Position numbers and translations under genes: made by a program. Below, one piece after another: positions 16,765 to 43,420 of a DNA stretch of 64,000 nt. Position 1 is the stretch's first letter. Every line of letters starts with the position of its first letter. A model generated the notes under the pieces. The model saw nothing but the letters and a program-made list of their open reading frames with translations, made no database searches and was not told the origin of the DNA. This DNA is from Planctomycetota bacterium (lineage in GTDB: Bacteria > Planctomycetota > Phycisphaerae > Phycisphaerales > UBA1924), in NCBI GenBank assembly GCA_018242605.1, contig JAFEBP010000003.1, positions 62,001 to 126,000 on the forward strand, read 5' to 3'.

Positions 16765-18393
16765 TCAGTCGCCGCCGACGCCGGCCTCTTCCTCGCCGAT
16801 CTCGCCGGCCTGAAGGTCGCCGACGTGGTGGGTCTCGGGCTTGACTTCCACGAGGCGCTTCTCGCCGCTGCCGGCCTTGGCGCTGCGTTCGTGCACGGCG
16901 GCCTGGCGGCCGTCCTCGGTGATCCGGTAGACGACGCCGATGGTGGTCTCGGGCTCGCCCAGGACCAGGCGGTTGACCAGTTCCACGCCCTGCATGAGCG
17001 TGTGGTCGGTGTTGGCGACCTCGTACTTCCACATGCCGAAGCGGCCGCGGCTGTAGATGCCGCGGTCTTCGAGCCACGGGATGACGCGGCTCAGGATGTC
17101 GTCGCGGTCGACGCTGGGCGTGGGGTACGAGTAGTCGGCGTAGTAGTGCCAGGTGCTGACGATGTCGTTGCGTTCGCCGGGCTCGAGCAGGCCGGCGTTC
17201 TCCAGACCGGTGATCGTCTCTTCGATGATGCGGGCGGCGTCGACAGGCTTGCGGGGGCTGCAGCTGGTTTCGCAGAGCAGGGAGTAGAAGGACGCATCAC
17301 CCTTGGTGTTGTCGGCGGGGGTCATGAAAGGCGAGTAGTTGGAGAGGTACGTCACGCGGTAGAACGGGCAGTTCTCCTCGGGGAAGTACATCCAGCTCTT
17401 GGTGCTGGGGCAGCGGCGCCTGATGCCGATGCCCACCATGTGGCCGCCGCTGTGCAGCAGTTTGGAAGACTCCTCACGCACGTGCGCGGGCACGCCGCCG
17501 GTAAGCATCTTATTGCACAGGATGTCCAGGGGCGTGGTCGAGACAAGCATGTCGTACTTGGTGTGCGTGCCGTCGGCGAAGTGCACGGTCCGGGCGTCGA
17601 CATCAATCGAGACGCACTTCTTGTTCAGGCGGATGTGGCTGCCGGGGGTCTCGCGGCCGTCCTGCGTGAGCCCCAGCACGGGGCCGAAGCGGCGGTAGAA
17701 CTCGCCGGTGCCGCCCTTCCTGGGGAACTTAAAGCGGTTGTTGGGGCCCCAGCCGTAATCGTCCTTGCCCAGGATCAGGTTCTTGAGGGCCCGCTCGTAG
17801 TCGATGACGGCGACGCGCTCGCCGATCCAGTGCTTGTTCATCATCTCGGGCGGGTAGGCCCAGACCTTGAAGTTGTACGGACGCATGAAGTGCTTGGCGA
17901 GGCCCTCGCCGAAGACGGCGTCGATGAACTCGCCGAAGTTGCGGGCGTCGTGGTGGCTCTTGATCTCGCCGCGGCCGGTCTGGGCGCGGATCAGACCCTG
18001 GATGCACTCGTGGGCCATCTCCGGGGGCAGGTAGCGGATGTTGTTCTGGAACGGGTACGGCACCCAGCGGTTGGCGATGCGGACCCAGCTCTCACGGTCG
18101 TTGAGCGTGAAATCCTCGCCCATGAGCTCGTCAAAGACGCGGTCGTAGTACGAGTAGTGGCTGAACATCACGTGGCCGCCGATGTCCCACGTGAAGCCGA
18201 CCGGGTCGGTGAAGGAGTGGGACAGCCCGCCCACGAACCCCTGGGCCTCAAAGACCTCGAAGTTGGTGTACCCCAGCTCCTTGAGGCGGTAGGCGGCCCC
18301 CAGCCCGGTGGGGCCGGCGCCGATGATGACGATGCGGGGTTGTGCGCCGGGAGACACCTTCTGTCGCCCGTTGGCGGCGTGTTGATCGGTCAT
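16765..18393 (-). CDS. glf: UDP-galactopyranose mutase-like flavoprotein of the eukaryotic class
   Basis: A 542-residue FAD enzyme. UDP-galactopyranose mutase converts UDP-galactopyranose to UDP-galactofuranose for surface glycans. The dinucleotide motif is GAGPTG (25-30). The segments GGHVMFSH (72-79), WVPYPFQNNI (110-119), MRPYNFKVWA, YFPEENCPFYR and YSRGRFGMWKYEV follow, in order, the conserved segments of fungal and trypanosomatid mutases as I know them, including the histidine loop and the late flavin-contact stretch. Bacterial Glf proteins are shorter (about 370-390 residues) and lack most of these. The C-terminus carries a charged extension of about 50 residues. The ATG at 18393 follows AGGACTTCAC. 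Its upstream region is the long repeat-filled stretch up to 19538. Confidence 0.82.
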   Translation of the reverse strand: MTDQHAANGRQKVSPGAQPRIVIIGAGPTGLGAAYRLKELGYTNFEVFEAQGFVGGLSHSFTDPVGFTWDIGGHVMFSHYSYYDRVFDELMGEDFTLNDRESWVRIANRWVPYPFQNNIRYLPPEMAHECIQGLIRAQTGRGEIKSHHDARNFGEFIDAVFGEGLAKHFMRPYNFKVWAYPPEMMNKHWIGERVAVIDYERALKNLILGKDDYGWGPNNRFKFPRKGGTGEFYRRFGPVLGLTQDGRETPGSHIRLNKKCVSIDVDARTVHFADGTHTKYDMLVSTTPLDILCNKMLTGGVPAHVREESSKLLHSGGHMVGIGIRRRCPSTKSWMYFPEENCPFYRVTYLSNYSPFMTPADNTKGDASFYSLLCETSCSPRKPVDAARIIEETITGLENAGLLEPGERNDIVSTWHYYADYSYPTPSVDRDDILSRVIPWLEDRGIYSRGRFGMWKYEVANTDHTLMQGVELVNRLVLGEPETTIGVVYRITEDGRQAAVHERSAKAGSGEKRLVEVKPETHHVGDLQAGEIGEEEAGVGGD

Positions 18394-19538
18394 GTGAAGT
18401 CCTGAAGGCCCCGGGTTGATGCGCTGCAGCGCCGGTTGGTTCGCGGGGGAGGCAAGTGTAGGGGATTTGGGGCCGAAAAGGGGTGCGGGGGGGCGTGCGG
18501 GGGTGGGGCGATGAACTTTTGTTGTGATGCGCGGGAGGTTGGCGGCGGGTTGGCCGCAGGTCGGCAGCGGATTGCCCGGGCGACTTGGAGAGGGGCGAAC
18601 GTGGCTCCGGGCACTTCGCGACCAGCGCCCCGGGGCGGGAGCCCGTGCATTTGAACTTTTGGTGGCGTGCTCGCGAGCGGAGGTTATTGGGACGATGGGG
18701 AAATGGGGAAATCAGGACATGGGGAAAGGGGGAAATGAAGTCGGGCGGGCAGTGCGGGCAGGTTGTGGAGGGGGAGCGGGCTGTAAGAAGTAGTTTGTGA
18801 TTCGATGAGCGGGGCCCGGGCGCGTGCGGATGAAGTTTTGGTGCGAACCAAGCCATGCAGACTCCCCCGACGGCACGCGCGATGAACTTTTGGTGGCGTA
18901 CGGGGCGGCGATGCGCCTGCCTGTGGCACGCTGGGGCCAATGCCGGGCGACCGACCGCGGTGGTGCGGATGAACTTTTGGTGGGGCGGGTTGGGAAGTAG
19001 GGTGCTTGCCGCCGCGGGCGATGAACATTTGGTGGCACGCGGGGCGGCGATGCGGCTGCCTGTGGCACGCCGGGGCCGGTGCCGGGCGATCTACCGCGGC
19101 GGGGCGGATGAAGTTTTGGTGGGGCGGGTTGGGAAGTTGGGTGCCTGCGGCCCCACGCGATGAACTTTTGGTGGCGCGCGGGGCGGGGAAGCGGCTGCCT
19201 GTGGCACGCCGGGGCCGGTGCCGGGCGATCGACCGCGGCGGGGCGGATGAACTTTTGGTGCAAGCGCGGCCAAGGAGGCCCCCGTCGCCGCGCGCGATGA
19301 ACTTTTGGTCGTGCGCATCGCTCCATCGGACTCGGTGCGCGGCGAACTGATGTTCGGATTTCAAAGAACAACGGCCGCGGGCGGTTGGGCGGGCGGCTCA
19401 AGGGTGATACGCGGGCGGCGGGGGGAGTTCCAGCGGTTTGTTCGCGAGTACACGCGATGTGCGCACGGGGGTGGGCGGTGGATGCGCACCGACAGTGGTG
19501 GAGTGAAGCCTCCTGCTCAGCGCTTTACAATGTGATTC
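18394..19538. other. Gene-free stretch carrying motif cluster 1
   Basis: No credible gene is seen in these 1145 bases. Open frames exist on both strands but are Pro/Arg-rich artefacts of composition, and the motif is read in different frames from one copy to the next. The stretch contains ten copies of a 16-nt AT-rich motif, seven of them in a regular tandem array, and a purine-rich patch at about 18697-18780 built from repeated GGGGAAA units. It lies between the divergently transcribed mutase gene (start 18393) and the MntA gene (start 19539), so it must include promoters for both. Confidence 0.8.
18510..19313. repeat. Motif cluster 1: ten copies of a 16-nt motif, partly a 139-bp tandem repeat
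   Basis: Consensus GATGAACTTTTGGTGG (plus strand). Copies begin at 18510, 18650, 18829, 18881, 18968, 19020, 19107, 19159, 19246 and 19296. From 18829 the spacing alternates 52, 87, 52, 87, 52, 87 and 50 bases, so the unit is 139 bp with two motifs; units run 18881-19019, 19020-19158 and 19159 to about 19262. The 87-base arm repeats a block reading CTGCCTGTGGCACGC and CCGGGCGA. Substitutions are few inside the motif (GAAG for GAAC, CATTT for CTTTT). On the strand of the adjacent mutase gene each copy reads CCACCAAAAGTTCATC. Confidence 0.9.
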
Positions 19539-19844
19539 ATGCTGCGGCTGCACGATATTGCCTTTGATCTTCCCCGCATCGGCGCGGCGTGCCGCCGCTT
19601 GGGCGTCGTGCGATTGTTTCTGTTCGGCTCCATCCTGACCGACCGGTTCCGCCCCGACAGCGATATCGACATGCTCGTCGAGACCGACCCGCTGCACCCG
19701 CCGGGCCTGCTCGCGTTGGGGGGCTTGCAGATGGAGCTTTCTGATATCCTCGGCAGGCACGTCCATCTGACGCTGCTGGGCGGCATTCCGCCGAACGAGC
19801 GGCCAGCGGTGCTGGCCCGCGCGAGGATGCTCGAAGCCGCCTGA
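19539..19844 (+). CDS. MntA-type nucleotidyltransferase antitoxin
   Basis: A 101-residue minimal nucleotidyltransferase. It has the complete signature GSx10DxD: Gly30-Ser31, Asp42 and Asp44 within LFLFGSILTDRFRPDSDID. In characterised MntA/HepT pairs the MntA protein transfers AMP residues to a tyrosine of the HEPN toxin and so inactivates it. The HEPN gene follows on the same strand. The start ATG at 19539 gives the family's usual length. A near-complete active site suggests a functional antitoxin. Confidence 0.87.
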   Translation: MLRLHDIAFDLPRIGAACRRLGVVRLFLFGSILTDRFRPDSDIDMLVETDPLHPPGLLALGGLQMELSDILGRHVHLTLLGGIPPNERPAVLARARMLEAA

Positions 19845-20345: not shown

Positions 20346-20816
20346 CTAGGTTCTGTCTGACGGATCATCCGGGGCCAGAATCCGCAGGTACTTTCGGATG
20401 ATGGCCAGGTTCACGAACGACACGAAGCTGGACGCCAGTTTGTCGTATCGGGTGCCCGCGCGGCGGTTCTCCTTGAGCCAGCCCACGCACCGCTCCACCC
20501 GCACCCGCTTCTTGTACACGCGGCGGTCGAGCGTCCGACGACCTTCGTAGCGCTCCTGATCGCTCCGCTGCGGGATCACCTGCTCGATCACGCGATCTTC
20601 CAGCCACGCCCGGATCGCCGGATAGCTGTAGCCCTTGTCCCCGGCGACCCGCAGCTGCCAGTCGGTCCACCGCGGCGGACGTACCCGGTGCATCAACGCG
20701 ACGAACGACCGGCTTTCGTGCTCCTGCCCCGCCGTGACGAGGGCGGCGAGGGGAACTCCGTGACCGTCAACGACCAGGTGGAGTTTGGATCCCCACCCGC
20801 CTCGCGAGCGGCCCAA
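20346..20816 (-). CDS. IS5-type transposase, OrfB part
   Basis: The 3' half of an IS5-family (IS427-like) DDE transposase. It contributes the second catalytic Asp in LHLVVDGHG and the Glu in the VERCVGWLKENRR helix, plus the conserved DKGYSYPAIR segment. It overlaps OrfA in the -1 frame, and the A7 run at 20852-20858 (read as AAAAAAAG on the minus strand) is a likely slippage site that would fuse the two frames into one protein of about 290 residues. The Met at 20816 is probably not a real start. The stop lies at the left end of the element. Confidence 0.88.
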   Translation of the reverse strand: MGRSRGGWGSKLHLVVDGHGVPLAALVTAGQEHESRSFVALMHRVRPPRWTDWQLRVAGDKGYSYPAIRAWLEDRVIEQVIPQRSDQERYEGRRTLDRRVYKKRVRVERCVGWLKENRRAGTRYDKLASSFVSFVNLAIIRKYLRILAPDDPSDRT

Positions 20817-21339
20817 TGCGTGATCTCCTTGGTCTCGGCCCGGTTCTTCGCTTTTTTTGAAGGCCCCGCCGCGGACCGCGATGCACGCACGTTGGTGCCG
20901 TCAACGCACCAGAGGTCCCAGTCGATGTACCCGTTCTTGTCCAACCGGATCCGCAGCGCCTTGAGTACGCGATCAAATGTTCCGTCCTTGCGGTATCGGT
21001 TGAAGCGGTCGTACACGCTCTGCCACTTGCCGTAGCGCTCGGGAAGATCACGCCATGGAGCCCCCGTCCTGAGCACCCAGAGGATGCCGTCGAACATCAG
21101 GCGATGGTCGTTCCACCTCCCGCCCCGCGACTGCTTGGGCAGCAACGGCCCGATCAGTTTCCACTGCGCATCGCTGAGATCGCCGCGTGCCTGTTTGCGT
21201 CCTGCCGTGCTCATGAAAGGCCTCCATGCCAGAGGCCACATCATTCCCGCCTGAGCCACGCCGCGTCGCCCCGCGCGAAACATAATCTCGCCATCAAAGC
21301 GCCGTACATGCGCCGAACGGGAGATCCGTCAGACAGGGC
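20350..21339 (-). mobile_element. IS5-family (IS427-like) insertion sequence
   Basis: About 990 bp with imperfect terminal inverted repeats: left end GTTCTGTCTGACGGATC (20350-20366), and the right end read on the minus strand GCCCTGTCTGACGGATC (21339-21323), two mismatches in 17. Both ends are flanked by CTAG (20346-20349 and 21340-21343), consistent with the TA/CTAG target duplications of the IS427 group. The exact boundary is ambiguous by one to two bases because the repeat and target overlap. It carries one frameshifted transposase gene. Confidence 0.85.
20693..21214 (-). CDS. IS5-type transposase, OrfA part
   Basis: The 5' half of the IS5-family transposase: N-terminal DUF4096-type region LSDAQWKLIGPLLP, the RTGAPWRDLPERYGKW segment and the first catalytic Asp in LWCVDGTNVRA. 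The open frame extends to 21283, but the ATG at 21214 (MSTAGRKQ) is the family-like start. After codons for PSKK the reading frame meets the A7 run at 20852-20858; without slippage translation continues in a meaningless frame to 20693, and with -1 slippage it enters OrfB. Both parts look intact, so the element may still be active. Confidence 0.88.
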   Translation of the reverse strand: MSTAGRKQARGDLSDAQWKLIGPLLPKQSRGGRWNDHRLMFDGILWVLRTGAPWRDLPERYGKWQSVYDRFNRYRKDGTFDRVLKALRIRLDKNGYIDWDLWCVDGTNVRASRSAAGPSKKAKNRAETKEITHWAAREAGGDPNSTWSLTVTEFPSPPSSRRGRSTKAGRSSR

Positions 21340-23217: not shown

Positions 23218-24276
23218 GAGCGGCTTCATCCCAAAACTAGGGCCGTATGGTACATGGTCGGGTTGCGCGATGGGTAGTGTTCGTGTAGCTTATGTTCTTG
23301 CACGCGGAGCGTTCGGTACCAAGGAGCTTCACGGATGGCATCACCGTTCTCGCAGGATTTGAGGTCTCGGGTGCTGGCGGCGGCGGATCGCGGCATGCAG
23401 ACCAAGCATATCTCGGAGATTTTCAACGTCAGCCCGGCGTGGGTGCGTCGCGTCAAGCAGCGCCGACGCGAAGCCGGGGAGACTTCGCCGCGGCCGATGG
23501 GTGGCGCGAGGGTGATCAAGATCGACATGGTGCTGCTGCGCGAGCTGGTCAGGGCGCGGCCCGACGCGACGCTCAAGGAACTGCGTGCGCAGCTGGGTGT
23601 GGTCTGCTCCGAGTCGGCGGTGTGCATGGCGCTCCAGCGTCTGGGGCTGTCTTTCAAAAAAAGCAATCCACGCGGCGGAGCAGGACCGCCCGGATGTAGC
23701 GGAGCGGCGCGAGAACTGGCGTGGGGGCCAACCCGGGCTGGATGCATGCCGATTGATCTTCATCGATGAAACCTGGGCCAAGACCAACACGACAGCACTG
23801 CGGGGGCGTGCCCCGATCGGCGAGCGACTGGTGGCGAAAGTGCCGCACGGGCACTGGAAAACCACATCACTGATCGCCGCCCTGGGGATGGGCGGCGTGC
23901 GCTGCTCGACGGTGGTTGACGGCGCGATCAATCAGGATGTCTTCGACGCGTTCGTCGAGCAGGTGCTGGCGCCCGAGCTGCGCCCGGGAGACATCGTGGT
24001 GATGGACAATCTCTCCAGCCACAAGAGCGTCCGCGCGCGTGACCTCATCGAGTCACGCGGCGCCACACTGGAGTTCCTCCCGCCTTACAGCCCGGACCTC
24101 AACCCGATCGAGATGGTGTTCGCGAAAGTGAAGCAACTGCTCCGCTCGCTGGAATGCCGCACCTCGCACGCGCTTTGGAGCGCCATGCAAACCGTGCTGG
24201 ATGCCGTCAGCTCTACAGACGCCGCCAACTGCTTCCGCCACTGCGGATACTCGCTATGCGCAGACCGAGAACGCTC
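23218..24276 (+). mobile_element. IS630-family insertion sequence (ends tentative)
   Basis: An IS630/Tc1-mariner type element carrying one frameshifted DDE transposase. TA dinucleotides at 23216-23217 and 24277-24278 flank ends that share GAGCG (left GAGCGGCTTC; right, minus strand, GAGCGTTCTC). TA duplication is the rule for this family. The inverted repeats are short and poor, so boundaries are tentative. The transposase frame has no stop before the proposed right end and runs about 90 bases past it, which either means the right end is further out or that the C-terminus is read from flanking DNA. Confidence 0.65.
23335..23769 (+). CDS. IS630-type transposase, N-terminal part
   Basis: The N-terminal helix-turn-helix region of an IS630 transposase: [41 protein letters not shown], then [31 protein letters not shown] in two pieces of similar helix-turn-helix character. 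At the A7 run 23656-23662 (codons for FKK) the frame would shift by one base into the catalytic part; without slippage translation ends after about 35 unrelated residues at 23769. Confidence 0.85.
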
Positions 24277-24367
24277 TAATGCACAGCGGCCGGAGCTACC
24301 GCTCCCGTCAGCTCCGCCCAAACCGGTTAAAGCAATCGTCGCGCCGCGCGATGGGCTACGACGGTAG
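23585..24367 (+). CDS. IS630-type transposase, catalytic part
   Basis: The DDE domain of an IS630 transposase. Catalytic positions are visible: Asp in [12 protein letters not shown], Asp in [11 protein letters not shown] and Glu in [18 protein letters not shown]. Only the part after about 23656 is meaningful; the ATG-like start at 23585 lies in the overlap with the first part and is probably not used. Joining both frames at the A7 run gives a protein of about 340 residues, normal for the family. The tail after [10 protein letters not shown] continues past the probable element end to a TGA at 24365. Confidence 0.85.
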
Positions 24368-38739: not shown

Positions 38740-41700
38740 TTATGGCGTATACCCGGCGGCCTTCATTGATTCTCGGACGGATTTTACTTTCGGGTGTTCC
38801 TCATCAAAGTGCTTGAGGAAGATACCCAGGGCTTTCTCAAAACTCGCGCAGGCTGCGGCACGATCGCCCTCCCGATAGCATATTGTCGCCAAGTTGGTGT
38901 ATCGAACGCCGATATCCGGGTGGTCCGGGGCGAAGTGCTTGGACTCGATCGCGATGGCCCTTTCAATACTGACCCGCGCCTCCGGTAAGGAGCCTTGGGC
39001 CAGCCGAATAAGCGCCAAATTGTTAAAGCGGATGGCGAAAGTCGGGTGGTCTGGGGCGAGGTGTTTGGAGTCGATCGCGATGGCCTTCTCAATGCTGGCC
39101 AGGGCCGCCGGTAGGTCGCCCTGGGCCCGCTGGATCATTGCCAGGTTGGAGTAGCTAGTCGCGAAAGTGGTGTGATCCTGTGCAAAGTGCTTGGACTGAA
39201 TCGCGATGGCTTTATCCATGTTGGCCCGCGCTCCCGACAAGTCGCCTTGCTCTTGCTGAATCACCGCGAGGTTGGAGCGCATGGTGGCGAGGTGAGGGTG
39301 CTCCGAATCAAGGTGCTTCTCGGCGATCGCGATCGCTTTCTCCATGCTGGCCCGCGCACCCGCCAGGTCGCCCTGATCCTGCTGAATCAGCGCGAGGTTG
39401 GAGCAGCGGGTCGCGAAGGTCGGGTGGTCCGGGGGGAAGTGCTTGGACTCGATCGCTACAGCCTTCTCCAGGTTGGCCCTCGCGCCGGGCAGATCGCCTT
39501 GGGCCCTCAAAATGGCCGCAAGGTTGGAATAGCTGGCGCCCATCTGGGGATGATCATCGCCGAAGTGCTGGCGCTCGATCTCCATCGAGAGCAACTTGTA
39601 CCGCGAAGCCTCGGCGAACTCGCCAAGTTCCCTCAGGATCATCGCTAAATTGTTGTAGCTAGTCGCAAAGGTCGGGTGATCCGGCGTGAGGTGATTGCAC
39701 TCAATCTCAATGGCCTTCTCCATGCTGGCCCGTGCCGACGACAACTCGCCCTGATCCTGCTGAATAAGAGCGAGATTGGAGTGGAGGATCGCGAGATGTG
39801 GGTGATCCGGCGGGAGGTTCGTCAAGTCGATCGCGATGGCCTTCTCAATGCTGGCCCGGGCCGCCGCCAGATCGCCCTGAGCCTTTTGGATCATCGCGAG
39901 GTTGGAGTGGCGGATCGCAAAGGTCAGATGATCCGGAGCAAAGTGCTTGGAGTCGATCGCGATAGCACTCTCCATATTGGCCCGCGCCGCCGGAAGGTCG
40001 CCCTGGGCTTGGCGGACTAAGGCGAGGTTGGATAGAAGCGCAGACATGTTGGGGTGCTCCGGCCCGAACATGGCTGCGGTCAGCGGTATGCAGGTCTCGT
40101 AGGTCCGCTGAGCTTCGGCGTATCGCCCGACTAACTTCAAATACGTTCCCAACTCGTTGGCAAGCTTGCCAGTACCCTGTGTCGGATGATCTGACGACGC
40201 CTGCGACACGAGCGCGTCGGCGTGCGCAGCGAGCATCGATAGTCGCGGCCATTTCGTGTGGTCGTCCGGATTGTCGAACTCCGATTTCAAAGACTCCACC
40301 ACTGCGTCGATCATTAGATCTCGGGTTTCGCGATCGAGCATCGACCGCACCACAGCCTGTGTCAGCGGGTGCACGCTGAGCGTTCCCGGATACTCGATGA
40401 TCGAGAGGTCCGCTAGATTACGGGCGAGCCTGCGAGCCGCGCCAATGTCCACCTTTGTAGCCTTTGCAAGCACGTCCAGCGGGACAGTCGTCGGGGCGCA
40501 GAATGACGCCAACCCTAGCAGCACCATCTCGCGCTTGCCCGCGAACTTGTCAAAGTGCAGCGATAGACACGAGCGGATGCTGTGGTAGTACCGCAGCAAA
40601 AGGGGGTCGTTCTCTCCCCACTCAGGCGGCACCGCGCCGCCATCAACGCTCTTGCCCGCCAACATCGCCGAGTAGTCCCGGGCCTCCACGTCGCGATACT
40701 TGGCGAGATAAGCGCCCGCCAGAGCGACGGCGAGTGTGTGACAATCGACCGCGCGAGCGATGGCCCGCAAATGCTCCTCCGGGTGCGAGGGCGTGCGCTC
40801 CGCCGTCTGCTTGGCGAGCAGGTCCACCGCCGCGTCCTCGCTCAACACTTCGACCTTGAACGCGCCGATCGTGGCCGCGCCCGACAGTTCCAGCCGCGTC
40901 GTCGCCAATACGCGGAAATGGCGCCCCGGCGGAAAGAGCGAGAGCCTCGCGGGCGAATCGAGGTTGTCGAGGATGACTAGGTGCCGCCCTGTGTTCCACA
41001 GGGCGCGGAGTTCGCGGGCCGCATCCTCTGGCTTGGTGTCGGGCGCGGCGGGCGTGCCCGTGGCGTACCCGAACGCGCGGATCACCGAGTCGGAAAAGCC
41101 CGCGTCCGAGGCGTCGATCCACCAGACGCCGTCGTACTCATCCGAAAAGGTCAACGCGAAAGCTCGGGCAAGTTCGGTCTTGCCGACGCCACCCGCGCCG
41201 AAGATGATGCGCGAGATCGCCAGCGAACCCTTCGCCAGTGCCTCGTGCAGCCGCGCCAAGTCCGCCTCTCGACCGGTGAAGAACCGGTTCCAACGGATGT
41301 CGGCGTCGGCGAAGTTGTTCTTGGCCTTGAGAGTTGGGCCCGTCTGCGCTGGGTTGCGCACGGCGTCGAGAATCTTGTTGAGCGTCGCTTCCGAGGCCCC
41401 GCCGAAATACTCGGCTCTCAGGTCGGCGTGCGCATTCAACAAATCCCTGAAGTCGCACCACCCATAGACCCTCACCTCGAAGAGCCCGGCGGACTTGTGT
41501 TCGCGCGTCACGTTCGCCGCCCAGGCGGTGTGGTCGTTCGCGTCGTCAGTCGTGGCGATGACGAATCGGCTGATGTGGACCTTCTTTCCGGTCTCGTCAT
41601 CAATGAGGTCCTTGGCGGCCGCTACATCCTGTTCAGCGTCCGCTCGTTTGAGCCCTTTCATCGTGTTACGCAGTTTGCACTGAACGACCACCGCTTTGCC

Positions 41701-41865
41701 GTTGGCATCGGTCGCAATAAGGTCGATGCCATGCTGCTTTTGGCCACGGCGTCTGAACTTTTGAAAAGGACCAACACCCAGCGCTCGCTCCATAGCGCGG
41801 GTGCAAATCGTTTCCCAGTCCGTTTCGTTATTCGGAGGCGGAAATTGGAACGAGCCGTGAGGCAT
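38740..41865 (-). CDS. STAND NTPase with Mrr-like nuclease and TPR sensor, candidate defence protein
   Basis: A 1041-residue protein in three parts. Residues 1-150: a PD-(D/E)xK (Mrr-like) nuclease with Asp47 in HGIDLIAT and the QxK motif (Gln61, Lys63). Residues 185-600: a STAND/NB-ARC-type ATPase with Walker A GAGGVGKT (222-229), Walker B LVILDN (295-300), the arginine sensor LATTRLE and a winged-helix-like region. Residues about 605-1025: ten tetratricopeptide repeats of 42 residues. This nuclease-STAND-repeat plan is that of Avs-type antiviral proteins that oligomerise on sensing a phage protein and then degrade DNA. The frame is open to 42180, but the ATG at 41865 (MPHGSFQF) begins the nuclease fold. 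Target ligand unknown. Divergent from the gene at 42170. Confidence 0.82.
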   Translation of the reverse strand: MPHGSFQFPPPNNETDWETICTRAMERALGVGPFQKFRRRGQKQHGIDLIATDANGKAVVVQCKLRNTMKGLKRADAEQDVAAAKDLIDDETGKKVHISRFVIATTDDANDHTAWAANVTREHKSAGLFEVRVYGWCDFRDLLNAHADLRAEYFGGASEATLNKILDAVRNPAQTGPTLKAKNNFADADIRWNRFFTGREADLARLHEALAKGSLAISRIIFGAGGVGKTELARAFALTFSDEYDGVWWIDASDAGFSDSVIRAFGYATGTPAAPDTKPEDAARELRALWNTGRHLVILDNLDSPARLSLFPPGRHFRVLATTRLELSGAATIGAFKVEVLSEDAAVDLLAKQTAERTPSHPEEHLRAIARAVDCHTLAVALAGAYLAKYRDVEARDYSAMLAGKSVDGGAVPPEWGENDPLLLRYYHSIRSCLSLHFDKFAGKREMVLLGLASFCAPTTVPLDVLAKATKVDIGAARRLARNLADLSIIEYPGTLSVHPLTQAVVRSMLDRETRDLMIDAVVESLKSEFDNPDDHTKWPRLSMLAAHADALVSQASSDHPTQGTGKLANELGTYLKLVGRYAEAQRTYETCIPLTAAMFGPEHPNMSALLSNLALVRQAQGDLPAARANMESAIAIDSKHFAPDHLTFAIRHSNLAMIQKAQGDLAAARASIEKAIAIDLTNLPPDHPHLAILHSNLALIQQDQGELSSARASMEKAIEIECNHLTPDHPTFATSYNNLAMILRELGEFAEASRYKLLSMEIERQHFGDDHPQMGASYSNLAAILRAQGDLPGARANLEKAVAIESKHFPPDHPTFATRCSNLALIQQDQGDLAGARASMEKAIAIAEKHLDSEHPHLATMRSNLAVIQQEQGDLSGARANMDKAIAIQSKHFAQDHTTFATSYSNLAMIQRAQGDLPAALASIEKAIAIDSKHLAPDHPTFAIRFNNLALIRLAQGSLPEARVSIERAIAIESKHFAPDHPDIGVRYTNLATICYREGDRAAACASFEKALGIFLKHFDEEHPKVKSVRESMKAAGYTP
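38793..40052 (-). repeat. Ten 126-bp coding repeats (TPR array) in the STAND gene
   Basis: The 3' part of the STAND gene is built from ten consecutive 126-bp units, each coding for a 42-residue tetratricopeptide repeat of the pattern HPxxA...SNLAxIxxxQGDLxxARAxxEKAIAI. Units 2, 3, 6, 7, 8 and 9 remain similar at DNA level (for example GCGATGGCCTTCTC and CAGATCGCCCTG recur), while the fourth is diverged. The coordinates are approximate and set by the His-Pro that opens each unit. Confidence 0.85.
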
Positions 41866-42169
41866 TATAGATATTACACACGACTTGATATGCTGGAAAG
41901 AGCAGAGATTGGACCGTGTTGCGATGAGTAAATCATGCCGATCAATCGTACACCCGGCTGGTGCGAGCAACAGATTCGCTCTCAATTCAATGGCGATTGG
42001 CGCGCCGCGAGTCGGGTCCCGCTCCCGTAGCCCATCGTGTGGCCATTTCGACGCCATACTGCGCCATTCCGTCGCCGAGATGTTCAAAGACAGATTTGAA
42101 GTCCATTTCTCTCCGCACGCCGCCGGCACCCTACGGCGGCTCTCCCTAACCTTGCCCAAGGAGCAGGCC
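41866..42169. other. Divergent promoter region between STAND gene and 201-residue gene
   Basis: This stretch of 304 bases separates two divergent genes. It is less GC-rich near the STAND start (ATTATAGATATTACACAC, 41864-41881), where a promoter is plausible, although no clear -35/-10 pair can be named. Open frames cross it on both strands but are not protein-like. Confidence 0.4.
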
Positions 42170-42775
42170 ATGCGAGCCAACGAGCAACCCTACCTCGTCC
42201 GCGAGTTCCTCAAGAAGACGGGCTGGCCTCCGCCGCGAGACCCCGACATCGCCCGTCGCATGCAGGTGGCGCTGCTGTTCTTTCGCCAGCGATTGAACGG
42301 CTGGTGCGATCGGCCCCTGGACCAGACCGATCGCGGGTACCGGGTGCACGGGTTCAATCCGTCCCAGGACACCGCCCGCGGCAAGCCGACGAAGCTGACC
42401 GGCGCGATGCAGGCGATCAACTTTCATTTCGAAGTGCGCCTGACGCAACTCGACGAGAACCACAAGCTGCGTCGATACGGCCGCCCCGCAGAAGGCAAGG
42501 GCGCATCGGTCAGCGGATTGTGGTTCACCGAGTGGTGGGTGCCCGCCGCGAAACTGGCCCTGCCCCCCGATCAGAACTTCGCGTACAACAGCGTGGTCAG
42601 CGCCAAGAACGGAATCTTGGTGCTCGAGAGCACTGCCGGGGATCTGCTGGTGGATTGGAACATGCAGGCGAACGCCTCGGTTGTGCCCGAGAATGGGCGT
42701 GACTACTTCTACCGATCCGGCGGGGGAGTTCAGTTCACGATTCCCAGCGCTGAATCTGTCCTGCGGCCTGTCTGA
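42170..42775 (+). CDS. Hypothetical protein
   Basis: A 201-residue soluble protein, no recognised family. The frame is open from 41885, yet the ATG at 42170 has a strong AAGGAG site 7 bases ahead and begins a convincing N-terminus (MRANEQPYLVREFLKKTGW). Features are a basic helical first half and a C-terminal half with WFTEWWVPAAKLALPPDQ, NGILVLESTAGDLLVDWNMQ and RSGGGVQFTIPS. It is divergent from the STAND gene, and whether it is part of the same defence locus is open. Motif cluster 2 begins about 150 bases downstream. Confidence 0.65.
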   Translation: MRANEQPYLVREFLKKTGWPPPRDPDIARRMQVALLFFRQRLNGWCDRPLDQTDRGYRVHGFNPSQDTARGKPTKLTGAMQAINFHFEVRLTQLDENHKLRRYGRPAEGKGASVSGLWFTEWWVPAAKLALPPDQNFAYNSVVSAKNGILVLESTAGDLLVDWNMQANASVVPENGRDYFYRSGGGVQFTIPSAESVLRPV

Positions 42776-43420
42776 GAGTCCTTCGCGCGACATGGGCCGC
42801 CCTTGTGCGCATCCCCGCGGCGGGTCCAAACAAAACCGGCCACGCCTGCGTTGTTCCGGCGTAGTCATGAGCGGCCCGCCCTGATCTTTGACAACCCATC
42901 CTGATCCCCCTTCGCGGCACACGCGCCACCAAAAGTTCATTGCGCGCACGCCCACCTCCATCTTCCATTCCAATCTCCAGAATCCCTCGTACTCCCACCC
43001 GAACGCGGCTCGCCCGCCGAACGTCCGAATAACTGCCAGGGCCGCGAAGGCGCACACACCACCAAAAGTTCATCCACCCTTCCCCTCTCCCCACCGCACC
43101 CAACCCAGTGAATTCAGGCCCAAAGTGCCACTCCCACCCCGTCCCATCCGCGGCGCACCTCACACCAAAAGTTCATCGCGCCCGCGGTGTCCGGCACTCG
43201 GCATCGGTCAGCGACCGCCGGACCCCGCCGGGAAGGCCCCCACCGCACGCACTCGGCGGTTCCAACACCCTTCACCCCTCCAACGCCCCAATAACCCGCT
43301 CCAGCGCGCCGCGCGCACGCCGCCAAAAGTTCAAACGCACCCCTTCAGCGCCGCCGACCACCGCTCCCAGACCCCACCTTCCGCCCGTCATACACTTGTC
43401 CTTCTCATTCGAGCCACTCC
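42776..43420. other. Gene-free stretch carrying motif cluster 2
   Basis: No credible gene lies in these 645 bases. Open frames are Pro/Arg/Ser-rich and follow GC composition. The region contains four copies of the same 16-nt motif found 24 kb away at 18510-19313. It ends at the start of phhB. Confidence 0.75.
42925..43336. repeat. Motif cluster 2: four copies of the 16-nt motif
   Basis: Plus-strand copies read CCACCAAAAGTTCATT (from 42927), CCACCAAAAGTTCATC (43060), ACACCAAAAGTTCATC (43163) and CGCCAAAAGTTCAAAC (43321), the reverse complement of the cluster 1 consensus. Spacing (about 133, 103 and 158 bases) is irregular, unlike cluster 1. The last copy shares its flanks with the copy at 18650: both read TTTGAACTTTTGG followed by YGGCGTGC on the strand opposite to the downstream gene. 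As in cluster 1, every copy has the CCAAAAGTTCA orientation toward the next gene. Confidence 0.88.

Follow-up and report, generated by a model that had tools for sequence, protein, structure and literature searches.

The window, the whole 64-kb stretch of DNA that was analysed, is part of contig C26 of a 4.98-Mb genome assembled in 32 contigs and 86.6% complete, and it contains two arrays of the same short motif, one per strand. The first lies beside a mutase-like gene, and each array is followed on its own strand by a tail of four boxes, B to E.

16765–18393, minus strand: gene of the flavin amine oxidase / NAD_binding_8 family (mutase-like) flanking array 1, outside the element and transcribed away from the array
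18511–18524, plus strand: motif copy 1 (ATGAACTTTTGTTG), from the motif matches in the window
18651–18664, plus strand: motif copy 2 (TTGAACTTTTGGTG)
18683 (start), plus strand: A2-like box GTTATTGGGAC, after motif copy 2
18830–19310, plus strand: dense array part with eight copies (14-mer starts 18830, 18882, 18969, 19021, 19108, 19160, 19247 and 19297)
19359–19367, plus strand: tail box B of array 1, TTTCAAAGA (consensus TGTCAAAGA)
19404–19412, plus strand: tail box C of array 1, GTGATACGC
19437–19446, plus strand: tail box D of array 1, TTTGTTCGCG (consensus TTTGTTTGGA), 33 bp from the start of C
19458–19466, plus strand: tail box E of array 1, TGTGCGCAC, 21 bp from the start of D
42927–43334, minus strand: second array, with copies at 43321–43334, 43163–43176, 43060–43073 and 42927–42940
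42805–42893, minus strand: tail of the second array (B 42885–42893, C 42859–42867, D 42825–42834, E 42805–42813)

All ten copies that a sequence-only reading had reported in the first array are present at their positions (16-mer starts 18510, 18650, 18829, 18881, 18968, 19020, 19107, 19159, 19246 and 19296), with 0–2 mismatches to the 16-mer. The 139-bp tandem period that it claimed is recovered by TRF at 18878–19260 (period 139, 2.8 copies, 89% matches); 139-bp units counted from 18880 are 75–86% identical to one another, and copy spacing within the dense part alternates between 52 and 87 bp. A 15-mer search of the 64-kb window with up to 3 mismatches returns 16 matches versus 0.45 expected. 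That first description was sound as to copies and period and missed the minus-strand array, the tail at about 19359–19466 and the roughly 50 arrays found genome-wide. Elsewhere in the window, a long minus-strand ORF (38740–42180) encodes an NTPase-like region and many TPR-like repeats and is the source of a 126-bp tandem repeat at 38917–40008, and transposase-like genes at 20346–21283 (minus strand) and 23335–24367 (plus strand) each show up as a pair of ORFs, overlapping or adjacent, in different frames.

The motif is a 14-letter sequence, ATGAASTTTTGGTG (S = C or G), and we find that array and tail form a polar element of chromosomal DNA, of which this genome has about 51 copies. With up to 1 mismatch, ATGAACTTTTGGTG gives 212 matches in this genome and 0 in the reversed control, far from random genome-wide frequency. 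Besides the window, 48 further stretches were read, giving 50 arrays with 260 copies, and one additional array at C26:128.5 kb brings the number to ~51. Each array has 1–11 copies in one orientation per locus, spaced 16–222 bp apart (median 97) without fixed helical phase, which makes the 139-bp period real at the first array but local to it. Spacings are uniform modulo 3 (73/68/69), indicating that the arrays are not coding; a protein-coding repeat was rejected, as copies are not kept in one frame, and the earlier suggestion that nucleotides rather than a peptide are conserved is borne out. The motif logo is G.GCssG-ATGAA[C/G]TTTTGGT[G/C]-G.GTGCGCG, in which position 6 is C or G except in 3 of 259 copies. 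On the motif strand, the DNA separating the copies is rich in G (G 0.48, C 0.195); a G-quadruplex array was rejected, with a G4 count of 58 versus 59.3 in shuffles. Many contig ends (C6, C11, C13, C20 at both ends, C25 and C32) have an array within a few kb, and further arrays may thus be lost in assembly gaps.

Alignment of the sequences 3′ of the last motif copy reveals that most arrays carry a conserved composite tail on the same strand, in the order box B, box C, 33 bp on box D and 21 bp on box E, the last of which contains the palindrome GTGCGCAC. Box B is strong in 34 loci at a distance from C of mostly 18–30 or ~45, the 33/21 spacing of C-D-E holds in 29 well-scoring loci, and the tail is divergent or unrecognisable in a minority (L036, L041, L048, L045, L049, L068 and L075–L077). 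The tail model R1 matches array 1 at 19397–19474 with an E value of 1.3e-12, the array 1 tail being among its training sequences. The tail sequence model, built from the array loci, scores strongly in this genome only, at those loci, and strong matches were found in no other genome. Structured RNA, one of the roles first proposed, was rejected, as the 29 aligned tails have 0 consensus base pairs and 18300–19700 has no Rfam match up to E = 1. The rigid spacing of the tail and its lack of RNA structure suggest that proteins bind the DNA, and the element does look, as the sequence-only reading supposed, like a set of sequence-specific sites. Three loci, L036, L041 and L048, have two-copy arrays with 0.5–1.5 kb of homologous sequence in common, no usual tail and negative upstream skew; they may represent a repeated gene region, and two of the three are near contig ends.

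The arrays lie essentially between genes, and the upstream gene is often directed away; a handful overlap low-scoring ORFs, and a handful occur at loci of repeated genes. Genes beside the arrays are unrelated to one another (S2, SHMT, aldehyde dehydrogenases, BipA), so that control of the mutase gene in particular, as had been suggested, is not supported, and a regulator of a single pathway was rejected. The 20 flanks scanned contain ordinary genes, with no initiator gene seen beside the arrays.

A search of the relatives places the element in this genome alone. No motif arrays were found in 60 relatives searched; among 397 genomes of the class only this one has more than 2 motif copies (193), and arrays occur in 0 of the 396 others. 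Elsewhere, a search of 85k genomes gives two single matches to the extended motif, and viral contigs give none, in sets that may omit records near-identical to this genome. In the congener G001, compared over the first half of its contig, 6 of 6 gaps orthologous to array sites are short (33–218 bp) and without boxes, which indicates that the element was gained here or lost in G001; gene order between the two is strongly shuffled. No different array family was found in 400 kb of G001 sampled, and the sole tandem repeat there was rejected as a counterpart array, as it is coding. That repeat, a 141-bp coding unit at L153:12494–14842, belongs to a secreted-looking cysteine-rich protein with ~47-aa repeats and a dockerin-like end.

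A dispersed, non-autonomous mobile repeat, inserting intergenically near replication-active places so that its link to strand skew is one of target choice, would explain the confinement of ~51 copies to one species, the longer homologous stretches that some arrays have in common and the six empty orthologous sites, though loss in G001 could also give the latter. We consider it quite unlikely, since most locus pairs are alike in short boxes at fixed spacing only, with diverged spacers (a minority share 200–1000 bp), whereas unselected insertions would decay evenly; the full-length similarity between copies expected of such a repeat is missing, and neither inverted ends nor a transposase is seen in the element. 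REP/BIME and other dispersed intergenic repeats also have many intergenic copies in one genome and are absent from relatives, but here no palindromic unit surrounds the motif, the tail has no RNA pairing and there is a polar link to strand asymmetry.

In 46 of 50 arrays the motif strand is the locally G-rich one, as judged by positive GC skew on it in flanks of ~4.5 kb with the array itself excluded. Across the 36 arrays with ±20 kb of sequence, motif-strand skew stays within −0.018 to +0.010 in the stretch from −20 to −6 kb. It climbs between −6 and −2 kb, reaches +0.10 to +0.146 over −4 to +14 kb and remains at ~+0.07–0.08 from +14 to +20 kb. The paired downstream-minus-upstream difference is +0.111 (n = 36, p = 9.6e-10), with positive skew downstream at 34 of 36 arrays versus upstream at 19 of 36, and when random sites are oriented to the G-rich strand, a step of the observed size is reached in 4 of 2000 trials; at array 1 of the window, the downstream skew is weak. 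A polar skew step precedes the element: its best-fitting position has a median of −4.5 kb and falls between −5 and −2.5 kb in 17 of 36 cases, with many arrays 3–6 kb downstream of the step. Fourfold sites have a skew of −0.06 to +0.08 on the upstream side, compared with +0.3 to +0.4 over the array itself and beyond it downstream, alike for genes of either strand, and both gene orientations are skewed over at least 15–20 kb. Transcription-driven skew was rejected, as genes of both orientations are skewed and T-A skew around the arrays is ~0. Array-proximal genes have an oriented skew of +0.243 here versus +0.039 in their G001 orthologues (n = 36, p = 0.0025).

Upstream genes are directed away from the array at most loci, the first gene at 29 of 36 and the next two at 27 of 36 each, as might be expected of a cis-regulatory leader in which the opposite strand is read, the tail with its rigid, promoter-like C-D-E spacing is the promoter region and the array is a long C-rich leader of the outward-pointing gene. 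This is very unlikely: 7 of 36 loci have their first upstream gene directed towards the array, the neighbouring genes are unrelated, and such a leader cannot account for skew beyond +14 kb on the other side, in genes of both strands. Nor does the skew step depend on outward-pointing upstream genes: at loci where these face the array, positive skew is still kept over several genes.

Known Chi sites are 5–8 nt long and scattered every few kb. Chi-like recombination hot spots, that is, oriented sites at which a RecBCD/AddAB-type nuclease is switched, recombination taking place on the 5′ side and restarted forks running 3′, would have the polarity, the G-rich strand and the short upstream and long downstream zones of asymmetry seen here, and the motif end TGGTGG resembles part of E. 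coli Chi, a lead only. We regard this reading as highly improbable, given tailed arrays about every 100 kb and given that Chi alone leaves net fork direction unchanged.

The complete 1-Mb contig C28 shows how the arrays relate to skew over longer distances. C28 has no net skew and several waves, many of them N-shaped, with an abrupt rise and a slow fall, and skew autocorrelation is gone by ~80–100 kb. Seven of its 13 strongest up-steps lie 3.0–5.6 kb upstream of an array, in the array's own frame, and the mean step at predicted places is 0.088 versus −0.002 ± 0.019, with 0 of 20000 random sets as large, at a predicted offset (−4.5 kb) learned from arrays that include C28's own. The largest up-step, at 557.5 kb (loci L112/L113; −0.18 to +0.11), lies beside an elongation-factor-G-like gene and has no array in a relaxed scan; it is possibly an ordinary bidirectional origin or an assembly join. 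Smooth ~100-kb domains in a genome of strongly shuffled gene order suggest that the skew reflects present replication rather than old inverted blocks.

Another reading is an orientation or segregation element (KOPS/AIMS/parS-like), where the arrays would load or point a DNA translocase or organiser on the leading strand without starting replication, and the skew domains would stem from past rearrangements or from origins elsewhere. A partition or organiser site was fairly listed among the first guesses, which missed the link to strand asymmetry. The bias of the arrays to the G-rich strand would fit such an element if that strand is the leading one, and the shuffled gene order relative to G001 fits it too, as do AIMS, leading-strand-biased 8-mers that are commoner towards the terminus (PMC5993296). 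KOPS/AIMS are likewise short oriented sequences, on the leading strand there and on the G-rich strand here, but AIMS are defined as 8-bp sequences, whereas ours are intergenic clustered arrays with a tail, at skew steps (PMC5993296). We judge this reading unlikely, since its sites are expected inside skew domains rather than at a clustered offset from up-steps, and smooth N-shaped gradients are unexpected from inversion-pasted blocks.

We tentatively favor the possibility, drawn from base composition, that arrays and tails are polar, replication-associated sites, origin-like or fork-establishing. An upward strand-skew step at or near the site, a general criterion for replication origins, is found here (n = 36, p = 9.6e-10), clustered at −3 to −6 kb, and by the logic of human N-domains, where an up-jump marks an initiation zone, the arrays would lie near places where forks start running in the motif direction. 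The upstream skew averages zero rather than minus, and the sites would thus be polar. The 14-mer repeats and the tail boxes at their rigid spacing would be bound by proteins, after which leading-strand synthesis would proceed mainly in the motif direction; loading of a D-loop or of a stretch of single-stranded DNA 5′ of the site before the fork leaves would, speculatively, fit the 3–6 kb offset. This origin-like reading supposes that skew follows fork direction, that the G-rich strand is leading, and that the element binds protein and causes the step rather than sits there. Against it stand the displacement of the step from the array by 3–6 kb, the arrayless largest up-step of C28 and the skew of G001, which fluctuates despite the absence of arrays. 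The presence of two DnaA genes, the lack of DnaA-box clusters and of an AT-rich tail, and the weak downstream skew at array 1 also count against it. The G-rich strand carries no excess of genes (46%) and the nearest upstream genes run mostly against the inferred fork, which leaves the leading strand unproven; were it C-rich, the arrays would be terminators.

The array does not resemble a DnaA-type oriC, which was rejected on two counts. DnaA boxes (TTATCCACA-like) do not cluster at the arrays on C26 or C28, with TTWTNCACA occurring 0 times in C26 and 12 times in C28 (1 Mb), as a single pair only, at 84 kb, away from the arrays; and no AT-rich unwinding region follows the array, AT being 33–38%, the array average, from the last motif to +350 bp. 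Two DnaA-domain genes are present (C28:85039–85518 and C32:255735–256214), as in nearly all relatives checked, and DnaA loss as in some cyanobacteria was therefore rejected, as was R-loop replication via loss of RNase HI, since RNase H is present. The C28 DnaA-domain gene is ~7 kb from an array and ~1 kb from that contig's only pair of DnaA-box-like sites. Iterons are ~20 bp long and closely packed beside a rep gene. Iteron-type plasmid origins share with our element direct binding-site copies in one orientation next to other conserved boxes, but an iteron origin was rejected, as the motif here is 14 bp at a median spacing of 97 bp, in many chromosomal copies, with ordinary genes and no initiator gene at the 20 flanks scanned.

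The accepted view is that a bacterial chromosome is replicated from a single origin. Some cyanobacteria with irregular skew have, by experiment, been shown to use several origins (Synechocystis and Nostoc, independently of DnaA; PMC7198777), a bacterial setting like the present one; in the part of that source drawn on here, no defined repeated element marks those origins, whereas this genome has ~51 sequence-defined sites and keeps dnaA in two copies. For others, multi-origin replication has been proposed on skew alone (PMC3269012, PMC4403523), and Gao points out that skew minima need not be origins and that rearrangements disturb them (PMC4403523). In human N-domains, upward skew jumps mark initiation zones, or master origins, and the linear fall between them is a gradient of fork polarity (PMC3320577). 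The sharp up-jump and gradual fall are alike here, where both gene strands show the skew, but human N-domains are megabase-sized versus ~100–200 kb, their borders have no common array and tail, and their jumps invert sign, whereas the upstream side here averages zero (PMC3320577).

We found in the literature no described system that places oriented, rigid-tailed arrays at skew steps, and agree with the sequence-only reading that no known repeat family fits. More doubtful than the origin-like reading of the sites themselves is its extension to the whole chromosome, which would replicate in ~50 domains whose fork direction is dictated by polar, origin-like sites of defined sequence (a 14-mer array in one orientation and a four-box tail) gained in one species-level lineage. 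If true, ~51 recognizable polar sites at skew steps would provide defined sequences for testing bacterial multi-origin replication, and a counterpart in bacteria to the skew domains known from animals. Even if its role proves to be segregation or recombination, a polar element that is spread over the genome of one species and tracks local strand composition is new.
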